From positions 222,417 through 286,416 of the forward strand of contig LGRX02030310.1 in the NCBI GenBank assembly GCA_001247695.2: DNA of 64,000 nucleotides, in the 5' to 3' direction. Source of the stretch: Cymbomonas tetramitiformis. Taxonomy: Eukaryota > Chlorophyta > Pyramimonadophyceae > Pyramimonadales > Pyramimonadaceae. This document shows positions 675 through 53,510 of the stretch, in pieces. The stretch's first letter is position 1; every line of letters begins with the position of its first letter. The notes below the pieces were generated by a model. The model had not been told where the DNA came from. It did no database searches and saw only the letters and a list, made by a program, of their open reading frames with translations. A program made the translations under genes and the position numbers.

Positions 675-1844
675 ATGACGGACGAAACGAATTCGCAAAT
701 AAAGTATCTATCCCTTTTTTCTGGGATCGGAGGCTTCGAGCATGGTTTGTTGCGCGTGAAGCCGGAGGCGGTATGCATCGGCTTCAGTGAGATTGCGAAG
801 CGGGCTACCGCCGTGTACAAAAAACAATGGCCGCAGGCGCACGCGTACGGTGACGTATGCAACATCACGCGCTCGAGTGTCTTGCGGCGCTATTGCGAAC
901 GATGCGCCGAGAGCGACACGTCGGTATGTGAAACGCATGCCGACCCGTCAACGGCCGCCATCGACCTGTTGCTCGGAGGCAGCCCATGTCAAGACTTTTC
1001 ACCGGCGAGAACTGATGAGCGCAAAGGTTTCGAAGGGAAAAAAAGCTGCCTGATGATGGAATTTTTTAGATTGGTGAACGAGTTGCGGCCTAAGGTGTTT
1101 GTTCTGGAAAACATCGGCACCATGCTCGCGAAGGATGCGATACGAATCGACCGTCAACTCAAATGCGGACATGTCAGCGTGGACGCCTCGCGTTTCACCT
1201 CGCAGTCGAGAGTACGGCACTTTTGGACCAACGCGAGTGAACAAATACCTCCAGTCACACGGAAGGGTCCCGCTTTCCGCGAGATGTTGGACGCAAAGGT
1301 GGACGCGAAAGAAATCCTCAACACGTGCGAGCTGTCCAAACTGTATCATCGTTTGCACGTCAAAAAATACAACCGAACGCGTCACTGCAAAGGAGGAATA
1401 CTCCCACACGTGAAAACCGCAACAAATATTTTTACCGGTCTTTCATACTCGTTCAAAAAGAAAAGCGCCACTCTCATGCGGTCATCTTCGAATCGAACAA
1501 CCAACATGCTGGTCTACGACGACCGCTTATCGTACGACGAGATTCAGTTTTGTTCCGAAACAAATTGCCGTTTGCCCTGGCGTAGAATGTCTGTTGCGGA
1601 GTGCCATCGCTTGCAAGGTTTCTCAATATCCGAGACCGCTAGAACCGATGCGGAGGCTCTCGACGAAAATCTGAATAGGCGAGAAAGAGTCGCCATGCTA
1701 GGGGACGCTGTCTGCGTGGACGTCGCCGAGTACCTGTTTCGCTATATCTACGACAGTACCGCTCGAAATTCGGGGCAGCTAAGCGTATCGCGTATGTTCG
1801 CACGCACCCTGGAAAAACCACAGATATGCGATGCGCGCCAGTGA
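675..1844 (+). CDS. C5 DNA cytosine methyltransferase
   Basis: Predicted to transfer a methyl group from S-adenosylmethionine to C5 of cytosine in DNA. The 389-residue protein shows the family motifs in order: motif I LSLFSGIGGFE (12-22, cofactor binding), motif IV GGSPCQDFSP with catalytic Cys105, motif VI as LENI (144-147, usually ENV), motif VIII QSRVRHFW (177-184), motif IX RRMSVAECHRLQGF (303-316) and motif X GDAV (343-346). The QSRVRHFW and GGSPC spellings recall eukaryotic DNMT3-type enzymes more than typical bacterial ones, but this is an impression. Between motifs I and IV, Cys74, Cys77, Cys85 and His88 (CxxC-x7-CxxH) could bind zinc. The target-recognition region is short. The ATG at 675 is the natural start. 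GC hairpin repeats lie on both sides. Target sequence and biological role (self-marking or host DNA modification) cannot be read from the sequence. Confidence 0.93.
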   Translation: MTDETNSQIKYLSLFSGIGGFEHGLLRVKPEAVCIGFSEIAKRATAVYKKQWPQAHAYGDVCNITRSSVLRRYCERCAESDTSVCETHADPSTAAIDLLLGGSPCQDFSPARTDERKGFEGKKSCLMMEFFRLVNELRPKVFVLENIGTMLAKDAIRIDRQLKCGHVSVDASRFTSQSRVRHFWTNASEQIPPVTRKGPAFREMLDAKVDAKEILNTCELSKLYHRLHVKKYNRTRHCKGGILPHVKTATNIFTGLSYSFKKKSATLMRSSSNRTTNMLVYDDRLSYDEIQFCSETNCRLPWRRMSVAECHRLQGFSISETARTDAEALDENLNRRERVAMLGDAVCVDVAEYLFRYIYDSTARNSGQLSVSRMFARTLEKPQICDARQ

Positions 1845-2110: not shown

Positions 2111-2285
2111 TTTAGAGCTTTTTTTGCGCTTAGAATATCGCCGTGCCTTGTTTCTGACATGCGTGTGCGTCAAAAGCTAAGTGTTTATGGGCGTAGAGCC
2201 ATGCGCGCCTCTTAGACTGTTGCTCATATTAACGCACACTCAATATAAGTATGTAGTAGATCCGGGCCCCACACGGACCATACAG

Positions 2286-3287
2286 ATGTCGCTGTTCCAA
2301 ACAAAGTCTTACGCGGATCGTGTGAAGGTCGCAAGCACAAGGTGCAGAAAAGGAAAACAGGACGCACACGACGTGTCTCACGTGGCGGATATTTCAGATT
2401 ACGACGGTGTCAAGGCCGCCTGTCGCATCTGCGTCCTCTGTATGCACGCGGCGAGCGACGCAATCGGCACCGGCTTCGCGAAAGATGGCTCCCACGTCGA
2501 AGAGGTGGTCGCGCGAGTGATGCTAAAAAACGGAGCTCACTCCGGATGCATGTGCGACACGGCCGACTTTAACGCATGCTGTTCCGTGTCCGTGAACGAA
2601 GTAGCGGCCCACGCCGCGCCAACCCGTAAAACCTTTGCACCCGGCGACGTCATAAAGGTCGACGTGGTGGTTCACATTGAGGAACACATGGGCGATATGG
2701 CTCGCACTTTCTTCTTCGATCCACCCACAATTGACACCAACATTTTTAGATTATACAATGTCAACCAGAAAGTGGTTCTGAGCACGATCCTCGAACTCAA
2801 CTCGCGTTTGTCAAAAGGTCCGGACACGTTGACGTACGTCGAAATCGGCGAAGTTCTGAATTCATTCGTCCGGATGCGTCGGACGGAATGCCGAGATTTT
2901 CGATGGACCGCCGTCAAAAATCTTTGCGGACATCGCATCGGCAAAAAGATGCACATCCGACCGTGGATATGCATGAGAGATGGACCAGCGACATCCGTGG
3001 ACACGGAGCCTGTAAGAGAATACGACACTTTTTGTATCGAACCTGTATGCTGCCTGGGAGACATCCCGTGCGCAACCGTGAATGAACGGCATGAAGTTGT
3101 CGCAGCCGACCTTTGCACACATTTTGAAGTGACGTGCGGCGTGAAGAGATCTCCAAACGGACGCTTACGAATCGCGTGTCTGACGTTCACGGATTTCGAT
3201 ATGAGCGAGTTCGAAAGCATTTCTGAATGCGTAAACAATGCCGGCATATCGCTCGGGATTGCGTCCGCCAAGAATCAACGATTCTGA
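2286..3287 (+). CDS. Methionine aminopeptidase (M24 family)
   Basis: Predicted cytosolic metalloprotease that removes the first methionine of new proteins. All five metal ligands of the pita-bread fold are visible, numbered from the ATG at 2286 (333 residues): Asp126 in KVDVVVH, Asp137 in MGDMARTFFF, His216 in CGHRIG, Glu252 in FCIEPV and Glu281 in HFEVT. The substrate-site His109 is present in SVNEVAAHA. His-x-Ile-Gly-x3-His spacing is closer to type 1 enzymes, but the protein has extra sequence between ligands and lacks the type 1 N-terminal zinc fingers. A short basic N-terminal stretch precedes the domain. The frame is open further upstream: another ATG at 2187 would add 33 residues that do not look like part of the domain. 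It sits in a same-strand group with the methyltransferase and an ERCC4 nuclease. EBP1-like non-catalytic relatives are less likely because every ligand is kept. Confidence 0.88.
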   Translation: MSLFQTKSYADRVKVASTRCRKGKQDAHDVSHVADISDYDGVKAACRICVLCMHAASDAIGTGFAKDGSHVEEVVARVMLKNGAHSGCMCDTADFNACCSVSVNEVAAHAAPTRKTFAPGDVIKVDVVVHIEEHMGDMARTFFFDPPTIDTNIFRLYNVNQKVVLSTILELNSRLSKGPDTLTYVEIGEVLNSFVRMRRTECRDFRWTAVKNLCGHRIGKKMHIRPWICMRDGPATSVDTEPVREYDTFCIEPVCCLGDIPCATVNERHEVVAADLCTHFEVTCGVKRSPNGRLRIACLTFTDFDMSEFESISECVNNAGISLGIASAKNQRF

Positions 3288-3459: not shown

Positions 3460-4320
3460 ATGAGTCCCACGGTGTTGTTGGTCGTCGATTCTAGGGAGCC
3501 GCAATCCGTGAGGAATGCGCTCTCCGAAATTCAGGTACAGTACGAGCAAGCGTGCCTGGACGTCGGAGATTTTCACATTGTGAGAGACGGACGTTTATTG
3601 TTGACCTTGGAGCGCAAGACCTGGGGAGATCTGGAGAACGCGCGCGTGTCCGGGCGTTTCGATGATCAACTGATTCGCGCCTTGGCTAACGGCTGTGAAA
3701 AGGACGCCATGCACTTCGTGATACTGGAGGACGCACGCGTGCGTTCGAATGCGGAATTGAAAAAAGAACGTACATCAAACGCGGGATTGATGGCGTCTTC
3801 CGCCGTGAATCGGTGCATCTTACAGAGCGGAGTGGGCGTCTTTCGCACCGCCGACACGCGCGACACGGCTCAACTCTTGAGATGGATTATGAAGAAGTGC
3901 GAAGCGGAGAGTGTCTTGATCGATAATGTCGACGGAAATAAGTATGGAAAGCGTCTGCGCGACTGCACCAACAGTCCGTATTACGGCGGCGTGATACACG
4001 CAAAGAAATCAAAAAATCAGGATTCCCCCACCGCCTGTTGGGTGAATATGCTGACGGTCATACGCGGACTATCCGAAACTGCAGCGCGAAGTATCAGCGA
4101 TCAGTACGGCGATGCCGGCATGCTTTTTGAGGCGGCGAGGAGTCGGCAAAACAAGCTGGGTAAGGGAACCTTGGTAACGCACGCTTCCGATCTGCTCAGC
4201 CAGGTGGTCGTGAACAATTCCAAGCGTAAAGTGGGCCCTGCGGTGGCAAAGCGAGTGGCCGCCTGCTTGTTTTCTTCGACACAAGCTGCGGCCGACGCGA
4301 CCACTTCCGCGAGAAAATGA
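3460..4320 (+). CDS. ERCC4-family nuclease (Mus81/XPF-like) with HhH
   Basis: Predicted structure-specific DNA endonuclease for recombination, repair or resolving replication intermediates. In the 286-residue product the nuclease core shows VVDSRE (8-13), LDVGDF (33-38) and LERKTWGD (50-57), which fits the GDx(n)ERKx3D catalytic signature. A helix-hairpin-helix-like stretch (LTVIRGLSETAARSISDQYG) follows near residues 195-215, as in Mus81/XPF proteins. The frame is open upstream to a TTG, but the first ATG is at 3460. Viral relatives of this nuclease type usually work alone or as homodimers, and no partner subunit is seen nearby. It ends 42 bases before the next same-strand gene. Confidence 0.85.
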   Translation: MSPTVLLVVDSREPQSVRNALSEIQVQYEQACLDVGDFHIVRDGRLLLTLERKTWGDLENARVSGRFDDQLIRALANGCEKDAMHFVILEDARVRSNAELKKERTSNAGLMASSAVNRCILQSGVGVFRTADTRDTAQLLRWIMKKCEAESVLIDNVDGNKYGKRLRDCTNSPYYGGVIHAKKSKNQDSPTACWVNMLTVIRGLSETAARSISDQYGDAGMLFEAARSRQNKLGKGTLVTHASDLLSQVVVNNSKRKVGPAVAKRVAACLFSSTQAAADATTSARK

Positions 4321-32800: not shown

Positions 32801-35285
32801 CCGTGTTGAACATGAACACGTTAGGAACGGTACGCAGATTCGTTGTGTCGACATTCGCGTCGTCCTCGAGTGAAGGGAATCCGGACAGCACGCACATATC
32901 GGCGTCGGCGTCGCCTTGTCTGTGCTCGGGAACAGGACAGAGGCTCTGCGCCCAAGACTCGTTGCCGTACGCGCCGTAGATGGGTACGAAAAAACAGTCG
33001 ACGGTCAGGTTGCTAGGAGCCTCCGTGAACGACCACTGCTTGTTGAGGTACGCGAAGCTGTAGGTCGCGTTCGAGCCACGTTTGCGATCGTGCGTAACGA
33101 CGTTTCCCGAAGGGTTGTCCTGCGCGTACCCGCAACCGTAGGCGTTCCAAGCATCCAGGCCAAGGCCGTGTGTCGTTGCGCCCGTCGCGTCGTTCGTGGC
33201 CTTCGTGACCGGCACCAAGCATTTGGGAGGAGGCGGGGGATTAGGCGGCGGACTCGGAGGCGCCGGATATCCGGGGGAGTCGGGCGGAGCTTGGTAAGGA
33301 CCGAAAAGGACGACCGTCAGCAGCCGATACATGAAGCGGATCTTCCCCGTCCCGACCCTCACAGCATACTTGAGGACATCGGCTTCGGTTGTCAAGTTCA
33401 CCGAGCGAATCAAGTCGGGCACGCCGAGAAGCGATTGCTCCAACTGATCGACCAGGTACGCTTTGGCGCAGTAGTAGCGCGCGTTTGAGTACGTGGACTG
33501 CTCGGCGCTCGTGCTGGCGTAAGCGCTGTTCTCTCCGTGCAAACAGCCGATCGTGTTCGGAGTTTCGACCATCTGATGCACCAGTCCGGTGACGTCGTCG
33601 TCGCCGTTGTCGTTTTTCCCGGTCAAAAGACCTTCCCACACAGATCGCAACGCCTGAAAGAAAATGTCCAAATACGAGACGAAGCGTCCGCATATGCGCG
33701 CCGTGCCACCCATGATTTGTAGCGGATGCTTTATGAATCCCATCGCCGAGGGTGGAGTCGTGGTGCACGTATTGGATTCCGCGTCGTAGAAAGGTTTATG
33801 AACGGACCAAAACTCGCCGCACGCCGATTTAAGGTCTTTATCGGAGGATTCCTTGATAATCAGATACTGCAAATAGTTGACAACCTCCATGTACCACTCG
33901 TCGAGCGCATCAAATCCGAATCCCAGCACGTCCAATTGAGAGGTGGTGAGGCCGTCCATGTCGAAGGTGCGGTAGTGACTGGCGTAATCGGGGCAAAGCA
34001 GCCAAGGCGGGTGATGCAAATACGGTTCCACCGGAAACCCGTTCTCGTGTTTGCCATCGTACCCCGTGTAGGAGTTCCAGCATATGCTATACTTCATCTC
34101 CGAATGATCTCCCGTGAAGAAGTACTCCTGCACCGTACTGTCCGAGGTTCCGCGCTCGAGCACTTCAGGGATCTTGCGAAGTCCGAACGCACTTGCGACC
34201 GTGTCGAAGGCGGATCGTGATCGCAACACGTAGTACACCGGAAGCTGTATCCACTTGCACAACACAACGAAAACCGCGTTCAGCGCAACCGGCGCGTTGT
34301 AGGCGTGGGGCACGCAGTCTTGACGAACGTCGTTGTCGAAGTCACAGGCGGCGCAGTACGAAAATTCCGGCGTGTACACTTCCAAGACCTCCCTCATGGA
34401 CTCGTCGTACCTCACGGAACCGGTCAGGTTTTGCACGTAGCACCACTTATTGTACGCCTCGTATGCGCTCATGCTTTTGGCTGCTGGAAAATAGTGTTCG
34501 CCGAGACTCACATCCGTATTCGTGGGTTCGTAGTACGACAACGGAGTCAGCGCGCTCTCCCAGAAATGTCGCAGCATGTCGCATGGTTGTATCAGCAACT
34601 CTCGGCAAACCCACACGAATCGCTGAATAGCGAAACAGACGCGAAGATAGTCAGGCGAGCCTTCTATAAAACCATCCACCACAATCCATTTGTGGAGCGA
34701 TCTGAGCCATTCGCTGATCATCGTGCATATCGCACCCACGCCCTCCAAAAGCAGATCGGTCTTTACCTTCAGAAAAATATTCGTGAAGAAGGATGATATG
34801 TTCCGGGTTAGCATATTGACCATCGTGTAGAAACCCGCAAAAGCTGAGTACAGCACCCCGAGCGCATGCAAGGCCACCTTGAGTGGATACAGCACAACAT
34901 CGTGAACGTCTTCGTAGAAGAGGTTAAACTTGTCTAGGATAACGTGACCCTGATGACTTATGATGAACGCGAGGAAGGAAAGCGCAATGATGGAAACAAT
35001 GGCGTATCGATGCTGAGTGACGTAAATCAGTAGCTGTTTCACGCTGTCGTACCATATGTTGAATATCCACATCGACGAATTCGTGAAAGTTTGTATTAGC
35101 TCTCGACTCTGGAGCTCCACCAAGTGATCGAAGTAGCCTCGGTAATCGTGATAAGAAACGTTGTGTATGGAATGCTTGTAGGTGTCCACATAAACGTAAT
35201 GCACCACAGCAAAAGACAAGAAGGTGTACAGGGAGGCCACGACCATAGCGGTGGGGAACAATACGTACAAAGACAAGTCCAACAT
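17847..35285 (-). CDS. Giant membrane-anchored Cys-rich protein with lectin-like modules
   Basis: 5,812 residues from a clean ATG. The first 250 residues hold several hydrophobic segments (about 8-32, 88-108 and 125-160) that look transmembrane, followed by amphipathic helices like those in the neighbouring giant protein. Short Pro-rich linkers occur near 662-690, 1084-1108, 3999-4023 and 4172-4190. Around 2199-2282 is a C-type-lectin-like C-terminal half (DCAAVSVLSGSHCAL, then WVTLPCSQRKPFVC), followed by the start of another (TFKEARAHCALEFGSDYDLA) and VWMGIRRHGRLRRFSD. A compact Cys motif near 3330-3365 ends SYYCPLTCDVC, resembling ShK-type folds. Dense Cys and NxS/T sites suggest an exposed glycoprotein. 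The last 18 residues are encoded by a GC hairpin repeat, so the native C terminus may be altered. The exact family is unknown; a virion surface or attachment role is inference. Confidence 0.8.
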   Translation of the reverse strand: MLDLSLYVLFPTAMVVASLYTFLSFAVVHYVYVDTYKHSIHNVSYHDYRGYFDHLVELQSRELIQTFTNSSMWIFNIWYDSVKQLLIYVTQHRYAIVSIIALSFLAFIISHQGHVILDKFNLFYEDVHDVVLYPLKVALHALGVLYSAFAGFYTMVNMLTRNISSFFTNIFLKVKTDLLLEGVGAICTMISEWLRSLHKWIVVDGFIEGSPDYLRVCFAIQRFVWVCRELLIQPCDMLRHFWESALTPLSYYEPTNTDVSLGEHYFPAAKSMSAYEAYNKWCYVQNLTGSVRYDESMREVLEVYTPEFSYCAACDFDNDVRQDCVPHAYNAPVALNAVFVVLCKWIQLPVYYVLRSRSAFDTVASAFGLRKIPEVLERGTSDSTVQEYFFTGDHSEMKYSICWNSYTGYDGKHENGFPVEPYLHHPPWLLCPDYASHYRTFDMDGLTTSQLDVLGFGFDALDEWYMEVVNYLQYLIIKESSDKDLKSACGEFWSVHKPFYDAESNTCTTTPPSAMGFIKHPLQIMGGTARICGRFVSYLDIFFQALRSVWEGLLTGKNDNGDDDVTGLVHQMVETPNTIGCLHGENSAYASTSAEQSTYSNARYYCAKAYLVDQLEQSLLGVPDLIRSVNLTTEADVLKYAVRVGTGKIRFMYRLLTVVLFGPYQAPPDSPGYPAPPSPPPNPPPPPKCLVPVTKATNDATGATTHGLGLDAWNAYGCGYAQDNPSGNVVTHDRKRGSNATYSFAYLNKQWSFTEAPSNLTVDCFFVPIYGAYGNESWAQSLCPVPEHRQGDADADMCVLSGFPSLEDDANVDTTNLRTVPNVFMFNTENQEDCSCDDQASSPVSEGALYTCPTSKYYAPTVSQGRDKQHVTVVSYLVDTDHDAASMDESLGFYTREGTIDYPHQVCRGLQVSLMDSEAGNVSYDFTMSGRCRLASDQYTNGLETEGYGRQVECSLVAITDISNDTLRQAASFITSDEARVMRIPVRVIRRYINGSSSNDDLAYEKNMLSPTVDLLAQGPSWTARVAEQLFDGSISDEVSPIWSDFKSVGGFGAGMHQPLCSCDPFEYVAPTPVRNVKHCAPRVFEGIPPPPTPPSGPSAPPPPAPSAPLVTNSTVCRSPGGYIMSGYEMRYHAKDISPVNCVCKESGMSPVASYSSTVEDTYYCPDECDQSSINGGPTCICRRQDIELMETQANGKRSVSVGIEEAKQKLLHVLNEVSVDVASVNAEHAASNETSNRSDFEFAYSFDFESETARFPTLKEISESDFCSTHLGEGWDLHVDRDGDSQSQIDTREALQVVVDERVNDWVMAATGMAFMDGHALCADRYTVALPPRGRRHYTGNLHPDEVSSIRAVLNPSRATWRLANARNKDDAGIYNQDDVDYVNAALSDALYSASSRNQKTPTDCAVNDPLLNNIRNTVIMSVFYEADNASGYRLRFGVNRTCSIDEEYMISDDGSAYSLACVTREDDTPVYTAADALNRRFSQSNLDALQEYSQIKDSAYGFMHHIEGRLQRVSLLNQTGYVSATDRCELPRAFSDYSDVFVSSDENSHVCKMYVDQTYLTSEFKISEHPKRRYFSDTGPFLKRHEHSDDHRTCSNSSESDVQSLCHDANLLSAEQMSQAAAFCGFSLVTETVRPTNARTACRSLPYGFVHRCGVTEQKTYNWSPREDGDDDSARTDYVYHALAAPSDPVNTTDMHDPENKLLVLNGTILNETEVDAFQSAGRRLVAVCSRAIPKNLSRSVLVDTDGETETRQDGVGELSEGRLREVRDAVADFKVHVAKCALNSLNTFPFLNSDDSHGFASLYAKSRANSLERILPPRLNGSGGTPWPYPWTKRASLSNMTRVTIGAVVRNATNGRAYAQLSSVGPVSERVEVKGAAATIRVDAPGRLRHDARGNAQGAQRQDPVIFESDLAFAFARDDPTAFGTSLRNQLSQVTFGIERCVDEDASRRALFRIRSLADNRFLKTKGAGPHPNLPSEFANVTQHPRFSRTQRYQADPGLHHERYHTNGTFEAVARSASTNSTAEDAHEGLDPATRRSSTVYLVEKHDESFLVRDSTAGLASNASRLYDFGGYLFESDLHLTHGARHDLRDDGDSESVAGDFDPLGHVGTYGVATRENKHLPLKDLSATTETDWTDEVRTFNRQLFSVVGESDGLLSFCTAGDDDTSSTFSTRHSRPSPHDSKLDSKLCTAMNQRRYNNWASGYPMHGVTLKKQAMDAIFGSGNFDCAAVSVLSGSHCALYTDDESECLIGHDAKYAQWVTLPCSQRKPFVCGNGELVKVITTPMTFKEARAHCALEFGSDYDLASPPSNEIENSDLANTARDALCVAEKLQPYARDGDDICSQYPDATHAEKHTTKTLADSIDSSCVKHDSLLQKYHCCETTSAYLYVYAHNSTEKTLVRNHVGIAGATHFACEDLVRAGSHARGSFYANGETITSDDDASYGDAWNLQYGGVWMGIRRHGRLRRFSDQRYGKCDLRGIDSVAETMLFEVVPCKDDSDSHVSGEYAIVGRDPTGRSVLLAVHEASHPFDAEALGTETATRNAEAFVHAVNKNRTLFIPYSIESASHLLADYQSSFEDHLEHPLRPSVWRTRATTLKMLESGYRTGVTMDNARSGRCIQSEARPNRPLHNVSIVTCSLEQHCGTVQFDVNVAVRLNLVIVPTDGESTDEVMQTLTQDISLDRPVMYVRTRSSSTRSRVIAQTSDASSLFGWTKSMNETLLTDAYRRNESALSDGGVEEPFAARLAYGTRGAADSALDPGDRLRSRVFGGPHVAAEPSDETFGIGRGVVDFKAYFGTLNASTYPCESTSDSDTSFPYDAETCASLVDHLPAPRIKEVYAPSTCGVDSYKSDERCTLLSLLTGRRLGFVEGVHARPRSSQTISLERLDTLWSAAEDDEDPELFSESKTAKHLKTIAQPSNRRSLWYPILHDDRDDMEVHKQITSLDEVHSNGWLYTCAGKTLAFEPAITLGNPPAPNSPPSEFSSSNENTNIGNFQVTAGGVLVQVNNTGNARVRRDIAEAYTVSNAESSVRTFQRSVDAHQAYRPNSAYNTYSFSGVEALSATVQYGATERSEETQSTCNDDYHTCRRYLNRLYKDGELSDTDAVDHYRVLGGAKSFAHQDASVDDHYVAGPRLQMPSEYTYRWSPPVENSNKKGLHVWIRGHSFNQTGTCSPSDETHAYSYRCDQDSGMCTNRLDSPIEQCVQQRSMYKESAAHDHCHHSLSEGCRDDNAGLSEDPVIKQLSSTDIRWNEILSCDQVLSFTKFKSEANELYSFDGDDTSFVCDSGNMDWCADKANYVDGISESDYENLKGKCENLVRAASYYCPLTCDVCEKRSWLYEARGRLQMRDVNDTYKRDENGATPHHLCTCTQTSPDLHCRPIATKEPEEYQTVTEEVRPRPEAAFMESFMSMWNSTADPSNDALNKVLPVVDMWNDVGAHGGVKYDTTFLYNNFGKGWRHDDGNFGPARVLVTFPYNNEHGDTLNYEPEHYGDVNVEAYSRSEKRLYGYDLENMADFNNKETFKKVSDLIADLCDNITYAYRRFNSESADEPMYSQPCMGFAAQDMYVYDGAPYDLDDMLAPECINSNMQGCEEHRYQMMSSHYYPNYQDWKHHRSEKQSWSKTRDGIFYALEETTRQNPEGLYSSFVYDANGDQRSSQESLYTRSSNFENAFAVNDETDINGRGAIRAFLFTLYGKRKYATKETGVRRRERLETLRVSHARPWTTSSNISEDAYEYARKSRTGAPRSKHSPSVTASYEAFLPTGSIGGVRGDEIATDDDKGSSLYTRHSGHLLATHTALDLRERYYYPAFIYKTMPDSSLTELLNHSLIDERTYDRATSDRGVDRPIQILWPPPEVTLWTRVAEAERARMPSREVFGTPDVPTSVFSDINGAWRLKHAPTGYKKHGVEQDGCDGSEVCAYTGGEFLDRTTSAANQTTEIRPTALPEFGLLWNRFLRNRMPTCYREDTQGRYYFSRHDQSQDGCESLKPPLGYDEGFQGPEYMSPPSAPSPPGKPNPPPSPGVYTVMHETINDKKKSTDESSMQRLPVTSLQNNNDHDRIKVYYWGNDKEKNIDECESQCTSDQYCGAYTAVELRKTNYDHKVYFCVNLYCGFSTYNMQNGQFHLCHDQTITCQHGDETNNDNDQKLCKSDHSDGSKGYHMTRLKVAHKIFLSPPPSPYPPIPPSPPPEYTGDGRSHNFDVYDQVYLMSNIIDDTLDMHQAAATWEDVRSVVCLDGSYETCDDRPYYQLNDETLSTTMVSVQPSKESNPQRTLESEFGPCDRYQGVWISADSESNFEFESTTCISRCERDRNCEMYFTVFLQNEDDGSQYDLVCFTLRRSRTNSHFNLTQAAQLEDESTRCAQVGVVATNYAFVQLINRTEVSVVREINTTTGNTSVITYETTTTTETQATIASVGDALPKSRYADAHYARRFTDESVDIYYSAQILKENQIDITDWVEPDFQMNSWGSSLTVDYDPLHRINALHVSKERSQAVCFDMGCVYYVRCGSVSYYYLSTSRILDKNTSVSEYQTDNHVCAENQGDLCACKGTVYFSEKYNSDGSEKTFEQAKIAARATRVFQDEELTCDENTFDTESSNTAMRCHCEPVDEVLQCVFSELREAWKIPENDRMESHRRMYRSDWMYSLASDSYLQDDAYRVRNGSAQSLSNLGVPANNGGFLDGSAFWQMGSFTWAFSPKHRCWPKACDLADDEPTAFVLSRATFHSEVMKKPAYLYVDDAVTDASLYSDHAYFARWIKYALTIALGQLLDRELELVYEELNAVGAWICGEDAKHTERRCRIGHDENSDFRLVGPRAVLYTDKYRGGVIDGDSLWAELLNSGKKICRQINENAIRRIAEGTSPPLPEDVVDCETDDCRFDLSVMVPMWSVCKGVTASILTDGVPADEIDQSVQPKTKQVSIAFALDGMLVRDDSSSVQHDASRAFSDETLRRSLARTTCSGEAWRGIERPSEWLDEDVCADDGSICEFAQMGTCESGLSLQDLNLDSVVQSGVQYHNEASYPLYNVSEMNTDTIITDDGTEEYGLNLCQATYERTLRSFYAGSTHKSVFNGTQEVDPSTVGCDSDWCVQQTVTERWDRMPTIGACIMYTAPVVSELLASDHGFLWGPATRLISATNEANSDSREYYDLSIHTTDLLHLDQSDEFELESTELSHTEHEHGVGYGTESTDLLMNTVNTIFDGCFPAAYTKSYYVDSTTKVLTVPMMSTGFRARGSLLNADSGGTNWYSKRAALPVFMYDLFDVHYYEKNLYTLFSAHENSGQVFGSSMTKWGSQSSANLYGLTHSEKAWNDTLYRSFTYSTDDNTSAFTVSDVESLARWGDQAFVFDELLSATEAMLYTDTFTTDDSGTSSEESNPSKISEGYEGRIFTSNGDAFAEYLDDTYNRGVQQDLCETFGLRETGSVRDAGSNVSTDDTDDRDLELTTFNWEVYYKFTCVDNITKCENPVNIEDAVIYGPFRNAYFDNAQSREGTVRLSTYRVTGDHAHAVVVIPDVEAGGKICGNGNSSLRVYRRVGEWGPFLPIEPRALSGTPRRERLSFYESPDPFSQHSTDVEHTLHRECYADNTTEDADTDYAEKVLGFFRSDNATKRTQDDTLSYRSFERMQDDDRHAIGPCDITSVHAENLSDVSLADISGRLERMFRGLDQQTVAEKMRTQVFHAELSYLNSSLNYTNHTFDETQTALPFLALLNYWNERYAYVYKAAVEMSKEKTFVGFLDDVPFDSGDTFRSCVFRSQPDYEARVLQRRVMSEGDSAISDSVRRATSQTDSPEVRPPFACKSAQPHIFRAREARGALRARENI
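17851..17902. repeat. GC-rich hairpin repeat, copy 3
   Basis: Near-perfect inverted repeat: ATATTTTCGCGCGCGCGAAG at 17851-17870 pairs with 17882-17902 (one base longer) around GGCCCCCCTCG. It overlaps the last 18 or so codons of the upstream giant gene, whose stop is at 17847-17849, and it separates the two giant genes. Confidence 0.9.
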
Positions 35286-45889: not shown

Positions 45890-46597
45890 CTAGGAGCTCT
45901 CGAGCACAAATACAGTAGAAGGGGCAGAAGGCATAGCAAAGTCGCTTTCGGCAAGAGGTGCGGACTCGTCCGCGAGCATTTGAGCCGAAGGTGCCTGCAC
46001 GTTAGGAAAGTAAGTCGCCACGGGTGTTTGCGTTTTTGCAGTGATCTCTTCGGTATCGTTCGTCGCTGTTCCGAAGAGCTCATTCAGCTCGTCCTGTAGA
46101 TCATTCTCACTGAACGCGGTGTCGAGCCCCGTGTTCAAAGCCTCCTGAATTTCGTCACTCGAGGCTTGCAAATCGATCATGTTCTCATTTATCTCGTCGA
46201 TGGACTTGAGATTCATGTCCACATTCTGATGCGCCCCCTTCACAAAGAAGTTCGCGTGATTTAGGGCTTCCATCGTCATGCACATGTCGTCGCTTTGCTG
46301 TATTTTCTCTAACGCCTCCGCACATATGTTGCGTAGACCGCTTGCGCGAGAGATTTTTTGTACCAGCTTCTTCTTCTCGATCATCTTAACACACGCAATC
46401 GTTCTGTTACGACTTCGTACGCTATGATTTAAGGACATCTCCACCATATTTAGGTCGTATCGCAGGGATCTCAAGTTAGCATCATGCACACATATCTGTT
46501 TTTCCAGCGTTTCGCGACTTTGCCGTTTGCTGTAACCGGGCGCGGCATAAACTAAACATCGCTTCACGATTTTTCGAAAAGCCGAGACGCACTGCAT
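45890..46597 (-). CDS. ESCRT-III subunit, Snf7/CHMP4-like
   Basis: Predicted membrane-remodelling filament protein of the Snf7 family, which cuts membrane necks in budding away from the cytosol. In the 235-residue product, a basic N-terminal stretch (1-30) leads into the helical core (31-175). The best matching part is ALNHANFFVKGAHQNVDMNL (111-130), then IDEINENMIDLQASSDEIQE (133-152), ending in the acidic DLQDELNELFG (166-176). Length, order and this central signature fit CHMP4/Snf7 better than CHMP1/2 types. The Pro/Ala-rich tail (about 190-235) is where cellular members carry binding sites for Vps4 or ALIX, but I cannot assign a motif. The ATG at 46597 was chosen over an upstream TTG. Its likely origin is the host. 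A role in virion budding or nuclear egress is inference. Confidence 0.8.
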   Translation of the reverse strand: MQCVSAFRKIVKRCLVYAAPGYSKRQSRETLEKQICVHDANLRSLRYDLNMVEMSLNHSVRSRNRTIACVKMIEKKKLVQKISRASGLRNICAEALEKIQQSDDMCMTMEALNHANFFVKGAHQNVDMNLKSIDEINENMIDLQASSDEIQEALNTGLDTAFSENDLQDELNELFGTATNDTEEITAKTQTPVATYFPNVQAPSAQMLADESAPLAESDFAMPSAPSTVFVLESS

Positions 46598-48128: not shown

Positions 48129-49766
48129 ATGGCACATTCCTTCTACTCCAACATACAAGATGTGTACATGTTCCAGACCTTATTTGAGTTTGTAAATCAC
48201 AAAACACAACAACAAGACCTGAAACTGTACGAGACAATCTTAGATTCCAAAGGGCAGTTTTCGAAGGACAAAATCTCAGAACTGCAACAGTTCTACATCG
48301 AGCGATCCGAGTGCTCGATACCTATGAATGAGTCACAAACACTAGCAGGTCAATCTTTTCCAGGAAAAAGGCCCATTACCAGAGTCGATGAAGAAAATGC
48401 ACGCAGAGAACAAAACCAACAGCATTTGCAAAAACAAGTTTTCATGAACCTTTCCGATACGTCCATCCAACAAGAACTGCTAGACCTTGAGACGACATTG
48501 GGTCCGGCCACAGACAAATTAACGATAATCGAGATGACGAAAAATTACAAGTACACCATTTATCCTGAAACTGATGATGCTGCAGACGACGATTCAAAAA
48601 TGTCGATATACAACGAGTGGGACATGGTGCCGACAAGAAACGGGTCCTATGCAAAACACTTTAAGTTGAAGATCGACGTGTACAACAAGATTGCAGGTAC
48701 ATACGACGATTTCTTGTGCGTCGTGCACAGCTCGCATCTTTACCAAGAGTACGGGGTTTATTGGAACGTAGATCCCGGTGAGTTTTTTGATAACGTGCAA
48801 GCCGAAGTCTACCCGGAAAATCTTATCAAGATCGAGAGTGTAGACGACAGAGAACGCTTGTGCATTGGCGAATTGATGCATCAGGAATTGCTCGAGACCT
48901 TGTACAAGAACGAATTTGACGATCCCGTCGACATTGCGAATTATACCTTTGAAAAAAAACAAGTGTATTATTTTGCTAACCTCCTCCGCAAGATTCTGGT
49001 ATACCCCAAAGATCGGGCGCTCAATCCAAATCTGTCATTATTAGAGGACGGTCTGTCCAAAAATGGCGCGACAGGCATGCATATAATACTCGAAGAAACG
49101 ATCAAACATTCAGGAATTTGTGCCATGTTGATCAACACGCTGTATGTCAAACGCTCGTCTGAATTACAAAAAATGGAATCGCAAAATCAAGGAGATGATG
49201 AGAATATGGATGACATGGACACTGCGGACGGTCAATTCGATGACACAATGGAGGATACTGACCAAACGGCCCTTGATGCACCAATGGCAACGGATGCCGA
49301 CGAGGACATGGAATCTGAGGCAGAACAGTTCAATGAAAAAATAGAAGCGAATAACAAAAAAACTGATGCATCAATGGCAACGAATGCCGCCAATAAGGAA
49401 GATGAAGATGACAAAGAAGTTGAAGATGACGAAGATGAAGATGACGAAGATGAAGATGACGACGAAGATGAAGATGATGACGAAGTTGAAGATGACGACA
49501 CAATTTTTTTATCGGGATTGGGGAACAAAACGCGTACAAATTACAACTGCTTTTTGAAAAACGGATATGTATACTTGTATGCAGACGTTTCAAAACGCGA
49601 CAAATTTATCGACGAATGTCCAGTGGTAGGTGACCAATTATACATGTTTTACACTACCTACAGAAAGGCGCAACCTACCGGTAACGAGACCTTTCAGACA
49701 GAAAACAGCCGAGATATTTTTTCCAACTTTGACCAGCTCTCTGAAAATTGTCATGTAGGAAAGTAA
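48129..49766 (+). CDS. Unknown protein with acidic repeat, AT-rich tandem gene 2
   Basis: 545 residues from the ATG at 48129 (the open frame starts at a TTG four bases after the previous stop). A Gln/Glu-rich helical N terminus is followed by a mixed domain (KYTIYPETDD, VYWNVDPGEFFDNV). An extremely acidic tract of Asp and Glu (about 430-458) and a short C-terminal domain (NCFLKNGYVYLYADVSKRDK) complete the protein. Acidic tracts of this sort often bind basic proteins such as histones, but no function can be assigned. Confidence 0.75.
   Translation: MAHSFYSNIQDVYMFQTLFEFVNHKTQQQDLKLYETILDSKGQFSKDKISELQQFYIERSECSIPMNESQTLAGQSFPGKRPITRVDEENARREQNQQHLQKQVFMNLSDTSIQQELLDLETTLGPATDKLTIIEMTKNYKYTIYPETDDAADDDSKMSIYNEWDMVPTRNGSYAKHFKLKIDVYNKIAGTYDDFLCVVHSSHLYQEYGVYWNVDPGEFFDNVQAEVYPENLIKIESVDDRERLCIGELMHQELLETLYKNEFDDPVDIANYTFEKKQVYYFANLLRKILVYPKDRALNPNLSLLEDGLSKNGATGMHIILEETIKHSGICAMLINTLYVKRSSELQKMESQNQGDDENMDDMDTADGQFDDTMEDTDQTALDAPMATDADEDMESEAEQFNEKIEANNKKTDASMATNAANKEDEDDKEVEDDEDEDDEDEDDDEDEDDDEVEDDDTIFLSGLGNKTRTNYNCFLKNGYVYLYADVSKRDKFIDECPVVGDQLYMFYTTYRKAQPTGNETFQTENSRDIFSNFDQLSENCHVGK
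49405..49500 (+). repeat. GAAGATGAC-type microsatellite in coding sequence
   Basis: Imperfect repeats of GAAGATGAAGATGAC encode the acidic tract. Repeat number could vary between isolates. Confidence 0.8.
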
Positions 49767-50349
49767 GATCCTCTTGAGATGATTCGCATGTTGAACGTCT
49801 GCGATACATTTTTTGCACTAAACGTAAATCTGCGCGTAATTATAATTGTTTACAAACCTGTAAATTACTACTTGTGCTTCACGAGAAAGAAGGATCCCCG
49901 AAAATAAGAATTTTATAGGATATTCGGGCCGTCTGGTGGTCTTTAACACTGGCTTAATCACCAAATTTTGAATATATGAACCGTCCATTTGCCCGATTTA
50001 ATTACTCCGTCCAGCACCTTATATATTCAGTGGAGCACCCGTACGACATGCCGTTGCAGTGGTATAAGTCAGTTTTTGTAAAGGTTCGAAGTTTGTATGT
50101 TTGTTTTGGCAGCAATAATTTGCAGGTTACATTGTTAACACGTGATAATGATATTACAAATGATGTAAAGCGTGTAGAGATCACTTCCACAAAATTCCCA
50201 CATCTACCGAACATCAACTTTTTAAAGACATCGACTGCCAATGTCCTCTGTTTAAACTTATGTGTTTTGGGCAATATTTAAAAGTCGCAAACCGATCCCG
50301 ATGATCTATTTTGGCGAGATATAAAACTCGTCGATGACAATTCATTCTT
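49767..50349. other. Convergent intergenic region
   Basis: No gene seen apart from MITE-like copy E. ATATAAAACTCG near 50319 looks like a TATA box but has no plausible gene after it. Confidence 0.4.
50063..50225 (+). repeat. MITE-like dispersed repeat, copy E
   Basis: Starts TATAAGTCAGTTTTTGTAAA and ends CTACCGAACATCAACTTTTT. The interior blocks are conserved (TTTTGGCAGCAATAATTTGC, GATAATGATATTACAAATGA). More diverged than copies D and F. Confidence 0.85.
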
Positions 50350-51339
50350 TTACACTATACGCTGTCGTTTAGAACCTACGAGGTCACCGGAAAAATCGTC
50401 GGGTACAATTCGACCAACACCACAAGAAGTGTCGTAGCTCTTCAAACCATCTTTTAAGGCCGACGGTAGCAGACTGTAAGCTTCTTTGTATTTGCTTTCC
50501 GACGCTGAGACAGACATCATTCGATTTGGATTGGCAAGTGCATTACTCGCGTGGTCCTGATTCAGAATAACTTGCTGCGAAGCCCCCGCACTGCGCAAGC
50601 TCGAGAGCTCTTTTTGATACTCCCGAAGTTTCGTAGTGAGCGCACTCTCGTTCGCTTCGGAGTGCGATTTCGTGGCGTCTCGCAGTTGATTTCCAACGTT
50701 GAGAAGTTGTCTTTGGGCACTCATGGCAACGGTAGCTGCAGGTAATCCGCGCAGAGTTTTTACGAGTTCGCCGTTACCGCAGAGATGCTCGTTGAACTGC
50801 TTTTTGGATTGGTCATCCATCGGCGCACCGTTGTACTGCATGTAAATGTCACTGATCGCGTCAGTTATTTGCGATGCCATGTCGCCGTACTGTGCTTCAC
50901 GCTCCTCGACCATTCTCTTGTTATCCTTTTGTAGATCTTCGTACATACTCTTCAATTCCTGATTTGTAGAAGTTGCGGTATTGAGCTGTTTGTAGATGTC
51001 CATTTGCATTTTGGTCATCTTCTCAAAAACTTCCGCCAGGCCTTTGCGTTTATCTTCCGGAATTTCTTTGGCAAGATCTTCGACCACGTCCGCTATGTTG
51101 ATCAAGTCATCCGCAGAGGCACCGGAGTGCGTGTTATTCTGTGGGGATTCCTGCGGTGGTGGGGCTTCGTTTGAAGCTGTTTCGAACGAAACCTTCCGAG
51201 CACGTCCGTCTCTACTATTTGTAGTATCTACACCTCCTGTCTGCTCTACAGCTTTGGGCTGACCAATGGTGTGGCTCGCGTTGATACCGTCCGCCACGAG
51301 AGACTTTTGCGCTTCGCTGGTCACAACTCCGGCACTCAT
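50350..51339 (-). CDS. Coiled-coil protein, candidate capsid scaffold
   Basis: 329 residues from the ATG at 51339, chosen because a TATAAATA box lies about 75 bases upstream; earlier ATGs would fall too close to that box. The N terminus is low complexity with Pro/Gln/Ser (APPPQESPQNN). The middle is long heptad-rich helix (IADVVEDLAKEI, then MYEDLQKDNKRMVEEREA). The C terminus ends in basic GSKRQRIV. It follows the maturation-protease-like gene by 26 bases, and its promoter sits inside that gene. In herpesviruses the scaffold is expressed from a nested promoter at the protease gene's 3' end, and phages also pair protease with scaffold. The scaffold role is therefore inferred from context plus coiled coil, not from sequence similarity. 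Confidence 0.6.
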   Translation of the reverse strand: MSAGVVTSEAQKSLVADGINASHTIGQPKAVEQTGGVDTTNSRDGRARKVSFETASNEAPPPQESPQNNTHSGASADDLINIADVVEDLAKEIPEDKRKGLAEVFEKMTKMQMDIYKQLNTATSTNQELKSMYEDLQKDNKRMVEEREAQYGDMASQITDAISDIYMQYNGAPMDDQSKKQFNEHLCGNGELVKTLRGLPAATVAMSAQRQLLNVGNQLRDATKSHSEANESALTTKLREYQKELSSLRSAGASQQVILNQDHASNALANPNRMMSVSASESKYKEAYSLLPSALKDGLKSYDTSCGVGRIVPDDFSGDLVGSKRQRIV

Positions 51340-51365
51340 TTTTACGATCTGCGTGTACGAATACC

Positions 51366-51914
51366 TCACGTTGAACTGAGTCTTAGTAAGTGACATCGCA
51401 AAGGACAAGGGTATTTATACTGACGCTCTGCATGTCTACGCAGGGTCACGTGGCTCGAGACGGGCTCGCGTACCTGCGCGCAATATATATGTTTGCCAGC
51501 GGAAACCGCGCGCGAGCACTCCACCTTGCAAATGTGCGTACCCTCTCGTGCTCCCTGCAAGCACAGGCTTACTTCCACCGGCTCCTTCTCCCACAGTTCG
51601 AAAGGCATATCCGAGTCGCCGTATATGTTGTGACACAAGCTCAAATCCGGCAGACCGCCGTATTTTATCAAATTGATTAAAGCATCGCCGGCGTATCCCT
51701 CGTCAATATTGAAAGTGATTGTCGTGTATCCGCTCTCGTCATTCGTATTTTGATTTGTGATTACTCCCCTGCAAGGCCCGTCATGCTCTACTTTGATAGG
51801 TAATCCAACCAAATTCATGTTCTTCAGTTCGTCTTTCGTAAGATCCGTAAAACTAGCTTCCTTCTTGTTTAGCGGCGGGTTCGAATATATGCAGCCCGTA
51901 AAGTTGCGCGACAT
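51366..51914 (-). CDS. Capsid maturation protease-like (herpes assemblin/HK97 prohead type)
   Basis: 182 residues from a clean ATG. The pattern NLVGLPIKVEHDGPCRGVIT (34-53) matches the histidine strand of herpesvirus assemblin and phage prohead proteases (family: LPI-x-V-x-H, then G-x-V), giving His44. YGGLPDLSLCHN (85-96) matches the serine strand, giving Ser92. EPVEVSLCLQGAREGT (111-126) matches the third strand, where herpesviruses have His in HVALCxxGRRxGT and many phages have Glu in an EVS motif; here it is Glu114. The triad would be His-Ser-Glu. The role is to cleave scaffold and itself inside the procapsid so DNA can be packaged. The last 40 residues overlap the promoter of the scaffold-like gene and look less conserved. 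Recognition is by motif order and spacing. Confidence 0.75.
   Translation of the reverse strand: MSRNFTGCIYSNPPLNKKEASFTDLTKDELKNMNLVGLPIKVEHDGPCRGVITNQNTNDESGYTTITFNIDEGYAGDALINLIKYGGLPDLSLCHNIYGDSDMPFELWEKEPVEVSLCLQGAREGTHICKVECSRAVSAGKHIYCAQVREPVSSHVTLRRHAERQYKYPCPLRCHLLRLSST
51412..51419 (-). promoter_or_regulatory. TATA box of scaffold-like gene, inside protease gene
   Basis: TATAAATA on the minus strand lies within the last codons of the protease-like gene and about 75 bases before the scaffold-like ATG at 51339. It implies separate expression of the downstream gene. Confidence 0.65.
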
Positions 51915-52255
51915 TGCTCACCAACTCAGACCCTGTTGACCCACCTAGAGGTGTGCGCTGAATCAGACTCGAACCGCGTATTGATACAACTAGATCAGGT
52001 GGCGCGCGGTACTGTGGAGTTCACCTAGAATCACGCAGCAATTTTTACTACGTATTGTGGTCACGTTACCTCGTTTTACATTCGCAATCCACGCAAGGTG
52101 TGAAAGTTGGTCAAGCGTGCACGAGGGTATCAAGCGGCGGCTACGTGACATATTTATACGTATCTCGAATCTTCATACTCGCACGTAGCACCCGACAGGT
52201 TCAATGATGTTTGTGCGGACGTTTCAAACATGCTCCAAAGAACAGTTGACATCGA
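51915..52255 (-). promoter_or_regulatory. Long leader of the protease gene with a start-stop uORF
   Basis: A TATAAATA box on the minus strand is at 52151-52158, 237 bases before the protease ATG. The only ATG between them (52079-52081) is followed immediately by TAA (52076-52078), a minimal start-stop element. No other gene is seen in this interval. A leader intron is also possible. Confidence 0.45.
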
Positions 52256-52612
52256 TCACTCGTTCCGCAGAGTCGCCGATATATCAATACGGTTTGTAAT
52301 AAGGTCGTCTTTGAATACCGTGGAGGGCGATGGAGTGTTAGAAGTGTTGAAAAATGCGTAGTTGATGACGGGATGAGTGCTCTTTTTTAGCTGCATGTGA
52401 ATCATATTGTAAAACAGGTAGACCATCAAGCACAGAAAAAAAAACGTAACTATCGACTTTCCAAAAAGAGGAGCCTGTAAAAATATCATGCGAACTCGTG
52501 GCTTTTGGATATCTATGGCAGATGTGTCAACTTTCGGTACAACACTCGGGACTGTTACATAGCGATTTTTGCTGCTTGGAAAAAAAGATGCCATTCGACA
52601 TTTATGTTTCAT
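52256..52612 (-). CDS. Small single-pass membrane protein, unknown
   Basis: 118 residues from the ATG at 52612; an earlier open start is a GTG that overlaps the TATATATA-like promoter at about 52719. A transmembrane segment lies at about 52-73 (KSIVTFFFLCLMVYLFYNMI). There is a short basic region before it and a Ser/Thr-rich tail after. It may be a virion membrane protein. No family recognised. Confidence 0.6.
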   Translation of the reverse strand: MKHKCRMASFFPSSKNRYVTVPSVVPKVDTSAIDIQKPRVRMIFLQAPLFGKSIVTFFFLCLMVYLFYNMIHMQLKKSTHPVINYAFFNTSNTPSPSTVFKDDLITNRIDISATLRNE

Positions 52613-53012
52613 CGAGCAAAATAAAAGATGATTATGGAGACCGTCGTATGAAATCTCTCGCAGTGCTGTTATCTCCACTATTTTACCGGGCTCTTCACAA
52701 GTGAAAACACGCACGCATATATATTACGATTGTCGCAACAAAATACCTAATTGGCGATTCCATTGTCAATATCTGACAGGTGTAGTACCTGTGCGGAATT
52801 CGCACGACATTTGCTAATCGACAGTGACCGTTAATGCCGTTTTTAACGGTGCAGCCCTCACCATGTTCTTTCACAAGAAATCTACTGGTTGTCATTTTTT
52901 ACATATACACACAGCATGTCAGTACAAGTTTCTGACGAGCGAGGTTCCCTGGGAAATTACGCGATACGCACAACGCAGATTTGGCTTCGCGTCTAGCAAA
53001 CTCCGGTTTGAA
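52613..53012. other. Intergenic, promoter only
   Basis: It contains an ATATATAT run near 52718 that probably serves the small membrane protein gene. No further gene is supported; open frames here have TTG starts and lack composition typical of proteins. Confidence 0.4.
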
Positions 53013-53510
53013 CTACCGCATTCGTTTGGGTGCAACGTCTTTTGCATTCGACGTGTCCCTCACCTCTGCACGCGTTTTTTTAATAGCGATAAGATGGTCC
53101 ATCTCGACATCATCCACATTGCTGAAAGCGCTACCGCCTTTTTTTTTTGATACGTACGACCGTATTAGGAACACGGTTTCCACGAGTATAACAATCAATG
53201 CCAGTAAACTGAATACACGCAAGTACAATTGATCTTTGTGCTCAACAAAAACCATCAAACTCGGTATTAAGATAAATACGCCGTGAGCGACAAACCGCGC
53301 GTCGTAAAGCGTCGGGGACAAAGAGGTGTCAAATTGATACAAAAGACTGACTGTTGAAACGATATACGAGCTGCTCACTAGCTTATAAGCTGCCACGTAA
53401 TCGCGTTCGCTCCACATCAGAACAACAGACACTATCAGAAGCATAAACTGTGAAAGTTTTGCAAATAAGTCTACGGCAATGTAATGCGAAGGCATGCGCA
53501 GACCTTCCAT
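53013..53510 (-). CDS. Four-pass membrane protein, unknown
   Basis: 165 residues from a clean ATG. Hydrophobic segments at about 13-33, 42-60, 72-90 and 96-117 suggest four transmembrane helices, followed by a basic cytosolic tail with SKKKGG and KRMR. A TATATATA box lies about 105 bases upstream. No resemblance to rhodopsins or known channels could be made out. Confidence 0.65.
   Translation of the reverse strand: MEGLRMPSHYIAVDLFAKLSQFMLLIVSVVLMWSERDYVAAYKLVSSSYIVSTVSLLYQFDTSLSPTLYDARFVAHGVFILIPSLMVFVEHKDQLYLRVFSLLALIVILVETVFLIRSYVSKKKGGSAFSNVDDVEMDHLIAIKKTRAEVRDTSNAKDVAPKRMR

Follow-up and report, generated by a model that had tools for sequence, protein, structure and literature searches.

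Whether two overlapping open reading frames (ORFs) in an algal genome are two viral genes or one, and what their products would do together, is the question raised by a locus of Cymbomonas tetramitiformis. The stretch analysed, called the window here, spans 64,000 nt (G000:C20845:222417-286416) and is the terminal part of the 286-kb contig C20845, of which 204 kb were read, in an assembly of 851.7 Mb and 25,745 contigs. On its minus strand, between positions 50350 and 51914, a sequence-only reading had placed a capsid maturation protease gene followed by a nested scaffold gene, and had pointed to a herpesvirus-related protist virus such as a mirusvirus. We conclude, with a probability of about 0.8, that the locus represents the gene for capsid protease and scaffold in an endogenous, mirusvirus-like (duplodnavirus) element, and that it would work by the mechanism described below.

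The upstream ORF, 51366-51914 (-), is open over 182 amino acids (aa), and its first 147 codons hold the following features:

51474..51914, minus strand: exon 1, predicted capsid maturation protease domain of 147 aa (His44, Ser92, Glu114 and the oxyanion-loop Arg123), with assemblin and prohead protease folds in the AlphaFold2 model
51783..51785, minus strand: His44, predicted catalytic, in the VEHxG loop between model strands 39-42 and 48-57; kept in at least 90% of the 30-sequence alignment A5
51639..51641, minus strand: Ser92, predicted nucleophile, on model strand 90-98; invariant in 30/30 sequences of A5
51573..51575, minus strand: Glu114, predicted third triad residue, on model strand 109-118; invariant in 30/30 sequences of A5

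All three residues named in the sequence-only reading are present. The AlphaFold model, for which 30 aligned sequences were the input, reached a predicted local distance difference test score (pLDDT) of 84.5, every one of the 17 PDB chains that it matched at E≤0.001 was a herpesvirus assemblin, and its top matches in a viral structure library included many prohead proteases. Judged by this model, the ORF is predicted to encode a herpesvirus/prohead-type capsid maturation protease with an assemblin-type beta-barrel fold, as had been proposed. His and Ser sit at the conserved topological places of the assemblin/prohead superfamily, by model topology and without side-chain superposition. The Ser-His-His triad of the herpesvirus assemblins proper, which form peptidase family S21, was not found, the third position being Glu114 in all 30 sequences; His95 is likewise invariant in that alignment, so that Glu114 as the third triad residue is not proven. 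The order and placement of the residues agree with those of the pseudorabies assemblin (His43/Ser109/His128; PMC4498786, cited here, like the other papers, from excerpts of its text): His is found in the loop that links strands two and three, and Ser and the third residue lie on successive strands. Also in common with that protease is the oxyanion-loop Arg, whereas the algal domain has Glu for the second His and is only ∼147 aa long, compared with 181–230 aa for the PDB chains. The acidic third residue is that of the phage prohead proteases, one of which, from a giant phage, has His/Ser/Asp in an alignment with T4 gp21 (PMC5694885), and the earlier likening of the Glu to the phage version therefore holds; the fold and the short domain are further features common to the algal protein and the tailed-phage enzymes (T4 gp21, HK97-type, Pfam S78). 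Environmental relatives come from a listing of 24 rows, 18 of which were taken into A5 and 17 into a second alignment, A6, used below. As a separate observation, GAAGTAAGC at 51567-51575, spanning the codons of E114-V-S, looks like a strong splice donor, and the corresponding position serves as donor in the GenBank models P0007-P0010, which belong to related loci.

The relation between the protease and the downstream ORF was then considered from the sequence that separates them:

51349..51473, minus strand: predicted spliceosomal intron, 125 nt, GT...CAG; donor and acceptor patterns match 13/13 loci (10 distinct)
50350..51348, minus strand: exon 2, I-V-K leader codons and scaffold; the leader reads [IV]-[VI]-[KR] just before Met in the loci seen, and the ratio of nonsynonymous to synonymous substitution rates (dN/dS) of the exon is 0.10 against locus L003

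Removal of 51473-51349 would join the protease exon in frame to the coiled-coil scaffold. In the loci of the window's type (L001-L013, which include the near-identical pairs L001/L002, L003/L004 and L008/L009 and hence give 10 distinct loci), the protease frame stops soon past [AV][QR]|GT; ahead of the scaffold frame stand CAG and then the [IV]-[VI]-[KR] codons, which directly adjoin ATG-AGY. The ten distinct introns are 107–143 nt long, leave mixed remainders modulo 3, and have little similarity save AGTATAAATA and their ends (the donors of L008, L009 and L012 were assigned by eye). Because the window-type relatives diverge right after [AV][QR]|GT, the final 35 residues of the 182-aa ORF are likely to be translated intron; the ORF described in the sequence-only reading does exist, and the main product is probably not this 182-residue protein but would be the spliced fusion. 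In other copies the two parts are found in a single frame. The fused type gave 28 genomic matches with open frames of 466–501 aa, protease and scaffold share one frame in all ten fused copies read (L014-L023; an interrupted fused copy, L024, is outside the counts), and the same holds for environmental relatives, two of which, of 410 and 401 aa, correspond to Tara records of 1233 and 1206 nt, sizes that imply continuous ORFs; the window type reaches this fusion via predicted splicing only. A third type (L025-L028) has its intron within the protease domain, between WRK and VP[VI]EISLC in the three copies translated (L025, L026 and L028), and the GenBank protein P0006 is modelled with the same intron.

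An arrangement in line with the sequence-only reading would be two separate genes, with a stand-alone 182-aa protease that has its own stop, a scaffold expressed solely from an internal TATA box, and no splicing. Both ORFs are indeed open without splicing and the TATA box is conserved, but we regard this arrangement as quite improbable: the protease tail past CAG|GT varies between loci, the splice-site patterns recur in 13/13 loci while the spacer shifts in length and frame, the [IV]-[VI]-[KR] codons stand upstream of the scaffold Met, and protein P0005 and the fused copies are joined. Hence, as far as the sequences tell, a single spliced gene for protease and scaffold is much the likelier arrangement, and not merely two overlapping genes.

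The intron also bears on how the scaffold alone could be made, and two further features are needed here:

50350..51339, minus strand: nested coiled-coil scaffold ORF of 329 aa, counted from its own Met; aligns at 32% identity with the C-terminal part of a fused genomic copy (E 1.5e-16)
51412..51419, minus strand: TATAAATA, TATA box of the predicted nested scaffold transcript, inside the intron and within the protease ORF 51366-51914

The downstream ORF overlaps the protease ORF and runs to 50350, with its likely first Met at 51339, and its heptad periodicity was equalled by 2 of 200 shuffles, in agreement with the coiled coil claimed for it. The TATA box lies inside the protease ORF as had been noted, the amendment being that it would belong to an intron of one spliced gene. 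The motif AGTATAAATA is kept in 10/10 aligned distinct window-type introns, and TATAAATA is likewise present in all ten; in the nine loci for which the distance was taken, it precedes the scaffold Met by 67–94 nt. The conserved TATA box and Met may mark an internal promoter for the scaffold alone. In the fused type, 7/7 copies examined (of ten fetched) have TATAAATA, read there as Ser-Ile-Asn-Thr, and 4/4 third-type copies have the version TATATATA. Over the 204 kb of contig C20845, TATAAATA was seen 34 times compared with 5.8 expected, and it occurs at most 130 nt upstream of 14 of 92 ORFs of at least 200 aa (mechanical ORFs, some overlapping; the scaffold ORF is among the 14), compared with 0/92 control windows inside the same ORFs. 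By these counts it is a promoter-like signal on this contig, more frequent than chance.

In the environmental relatives, Tyr-Ile is the sole fully conserved linker feature of the 17-member alignment A6, and Met-[Ser/Ala/Thr] follows 42–72 nt downstream in 17/17; P0027 and P0029, outside A6, also have Tyr-Ile, and P0011 has Tyr-Val. A TATA box translated in frame would yield just such a Tyr-Ile. These relatives are known as protein sequence only, capsid proteases require a release site in the linker between protease and scaffold, and P0011 departs from the pattern, so that the odds that Tyr-Ile is a protease cleavage or structural motif, and not an in-frame TATA box, are appreciable while clearly below even. 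On the other side, the fused Cymbomonas copies keep the TATA box in another frame (SINT), which means that the DNA, not Tyr-Ile, is conserved there, and Met followed by Ser, Ala or Thr stands at 42–72 nt in every member of A6. With slightly better than even confidence in the whole, we propose that a scaffold promoter is locked inside the protease-scaffold gene of these mirusvirus-like viruses, and that its TATA box has been kept through three architectures: translated as part of the protein (as Tyr-Ile in the environmental relatives and as Ser-Ile-Asn-Thr in the fused copies of Cymbomonas), concealed within an intron (window type), or in the linker with the intron moved into the protease domain. 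The intron would then relieve the promoter of the constraint that coding imposes, and it could serve as a switch among three products, namely free protease, fused pre-protein and scaffold; the nested pair would be ancestral to herpesviruses and mirusviruses.

The predicted spliced fusion and the conserved TATA box in the intron point to a likely design as in herpesvirus UL26/UL26.5, with one pre-protein and a nested scaffold. In that scheme the fused protease-scaffold and excess scaffold co-assemble with the capsid protein (PMC4498786). By analogy, we infer that in cells the long transcript would be spliced (51473-51349 out) to give a protease-linker-scaffold pre-protein, whose scaffold part would carry the protease into the forming procapsid, and that a second transcript would start downstream of the intron TATA box and give the scaffold alone, from Met 51339, in excess. 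The fused and free scaffold would co-assemble with the capsid protein and the protease would be activated in the procapsid; once the shell is closed, the Ser92-His44-Glu114 protease would free itself and cut the scaffold, at presumed cleavage sites, and DNA would enter. The predicted fusion of protease to scaffold with a nested scaffold frame is a feature common to this gene and UL26/UL26.5, whereas the algal fusion would go through an intron that holds the nested promoter; from the tailed-phage prohead proteases the algal protease differs in its predicted link to the scaffold, its intron and its nested promoter of the TATA type.

The element that carries the gene was compared with mirusviruses and with known elements of this alga. 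A capsid protease has already been reported for mirusviruses (PMC10132985), and the present one resembles it, by description and not by sequence, in being a capsid protease of duplodnavirus type from a group of viruses that infect protists and have genes for heliorhodopsin and Snf7. In mirusviruses spliceosomal introns are enriched in virion genes, so that intron-rich morphogenesis genes are a further likeness, and Snf7 is a core function (PMC12768974). The virion module given there consists of major capsid protein (MCP), terminase, portal, jelly-roll and two triplex proteins, and the words ‘protease’ and ‘scaffold’ are absent from its main text. In contrast to the algal gene, scaffold fusion and a nested promoter are unmentioned in the excerpts of these two mirusvirus accounts, and no account of a mirusvirus scaffold with a nested, promoter-bearing arrangement was found in the excerpted open-licence literature searched. 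Elements of Cymbomonas itself, the CHeCMEs, are reported to have mirusvirus-like HK97 capsid genes together with heliorhodopsin genes (PMC10675990). Heliorhodopsin gave at least 68 genomic matches on at least 49 contigs, and 8 of the 51 contigs with the protease also carry it, at spacings of 108.6–111.9 kb (four), 75.8 kb (one) and 35.8–40.3 kb (three), and 3′ of the protease gene in seven of the eight. The exception is C25294, the closest relative of C20845 apart from the near-identical copy, in which heliorhodopsin (117713) lies on the 5′ side of the protease (229618); a position like this would fall past the contig end on C20845. C25294 itself is possibly rearranged, or a neighbouring element is seen there. 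Moreover, RING, alpha/beta hydrolase and exonuclease matches in C2382, a smaller element with a fused gene, are likenesses to the CHeCMEs, while the main text of PMC10675990 is without ‘protease’ or ‘terminase’ and C20845 is without a heliorhodopsin match. The element resembles the CHeCMEs, and its mirusvirus membership is likely, judged from the published Cymbomonas elements, the Snf7 gene and heliorhodopsin on related contigs.

Both exons are under selection. For the window and L003, dN/dS was 0.06 in exon 1 and 0.10 in exon 2; for L008 and L012 it was 0.05 and 0.11, and for L010 and L011 it was 0.06 in exon 1 (dS 2.1), the remaining comparisons being saturated at synonymous sites. The analysis took in 11 of the 13 window-type loci, and exon 2 of L012 was cut by the end of the stretch used. 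In L011 (C18371:150900-153400), the scaffold exon passes into unrelated sequence after roughly 100 codons, apparently by insertion or rearrangement.

Several observations weigh against this account of the gene and the element. The profile search suggested as a check in the sequence-only reading matched the window protein to neither S21 nor S78 in Pfam and PDB sequence searches, nor is any sequence match to the herpesvirus proteases detectable; one weak S78 match was that of the environmental relative P0011 (E 0.11). In the window copy, no obvious sites of the herpesvirus kind for release and maturation can be made out; it is without the YAS or YAT, to be compared with the herpesvirus site consensus, that the fused copies carry near the C terminus. 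The donor and acceptor patterns were composed after the sequences were seen and fix phase 0, so that the phase is not an independent test, and the evidence for splicing is that the sites recur in place while the introns vary. P0005 (479 aa, on a 5.8-kb contig) reads straight through the exon junction, the source of its gene model being unstated, and the GenBank models P0007-P0010 splice protease to scaffold from an upstream donor (EPVE or EPIE|) that would delete the oxyanion-loop motif, a choice that we take as prediction error or a minor isoform. Among the 11 loci read, the scaffold exon of L011 is broken and L005 stops early near a contig end, and most viral elements of this alga are described as silent (PMC10675990). 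No HK97 MCP, portal or terminase was recognised in 204 of the contig's 286 kb, where the sequence-only reading had asked for them, nor was any of these or a triplex protein recognised among the chosen ORFs of the window, L029-L038, L043-L046 and C2382 with Pfam and PHROGs, which were used without a mirusvirus profile. Finally, C20845 gave no heliorhodopsin match, though the 3′ side lies within the contig and a copy there should have shown.

Two of these points touch on whether the gene has any present function. A relic, whether a provirus gene that has decayed and lost its function or one domesticated as a gene of the host, would fit an endogenous sequence in many copies, some interrupted, in a genome whose viral elements are mostly silent (PMC10675990), but the window copy is open in both exons and dN/dS is 0.05–0.11 between diverged copies, which makes a relic doubtful; these ratios indicate constraint over the time that separates the copies, with which recent silencing is still compatible. 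The last points touch on the lineage. Because heliorhodopsin is on eight contigs with the protease and not on C20845, the linkage supports the family as a whole and not this contig, and because MCP, portal and terminase were not found either, mirusvirus membership is something we infer. The element could instead belong to a lineage that is related to herpesviruses but lies outside Mirusviricota, or be a chimera that acquired nothing but the protease-scaffold gene, in line with these absences and with a DNA polymerase B and many unassigned genes; against this stand the mirusvirus-like HK97 MCPs reported with heliorhodopsin elements in this genome (PMC10675990), the eight contigs with both genes, and the Snf7 gene, and we hold it to be unlikely. 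A double-jelly-roll capsid, named in the sequence-only reading as a finding that would refute it, was absent from Pfam scans of the chosen C20845 ORFs (20 in the window, 45 in L029-L038 and 10 in L043-L046). If the mirusvirus-like protease-scaffold gene is confirmed, UL26/UL26.5 logic extends to viruses of algae, a character common to herpesviruses and mirusviruses is added, and a marker gene of ∼450 aa becomes available for finding such viruses.

Other genes of the window that could be assigned are the following:

675..1844, plus strand: C5 cytosine DNA methyltransferase (Pfam E 2e-32)
2187..3287, plus strand: M24 metallopeptidase, MetAP-type, common to element C2382 (Pfam E 5e-19; 36% identity to the C2382 gene)
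3460..4320, plus strand: ERCC4/MUS81-type nuclease, common to element C2382 (Pfam E 2e-11; 46% identity to the C2382 gene)
45890..46597, minus strand: Snf7/ESCRT-III-like gene (Pfam PF03357, E 7e-12)

The methyltransferase and the MetAP-type gene had been named in the sequence-only reading and are found here, while the F-box gene named with them is not, no F-box family being matched by the 20 window proteins scanned. A Pfam scan also gave an RNase_T-family exonuclease gene in the window, and in the 100 kb directly upstream there are DNA polymerase B, a match to DNA polymerase delta subunit-4, and FHA, RING and RCC1 proteins. The protease-scaffold gene, ERCC4, M24, FHA, a ∼600-aa protein and an exonuclease are present in both C2382 and C20845. 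What is probably the exonuclease gene (two C2382 ORFs match exonuclease in PHROGs) lies in two pieces at L041:2843-3992 in C2382 and in one frame at L044:3887-5035 in C20845, so that introns are apparently gained or lost from one such element to another. In C2382, adjoining ORFs at L039:8555-10000 and L040:1664-3076 have similar starts and are probably the two that weakly match an Ant-type anti-repressor PHROG, and one ORF weakly matches MSV199. As to protein matches, the window ORF had one, to a Cymbomonas tetramitiformis protein, and 7 of the 11 rows matching the fused form were proteins of the same species.

Elsewhere in the window, two giant ORFs, 6610-17664 (-) of 3684 aa and 17847-35285 (-) of 5812 aa, lie in a region of raised GC (about 0.53–0.61), with no PDB sequence match for the former or for the first 4000 residues of the latter. 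The ORF 48129-49766 (+), of 545 aa with a long Asp/Glu-rich stretch and without an assigned family, adjoins the scaffold gene convergently. A second contig has the same locus, window 49869-53414 and L002 (C22397:43355-46900) differing at 2 of 3546 bases, and this copy may be a haplotype, a recent duplication or an assembly copy.
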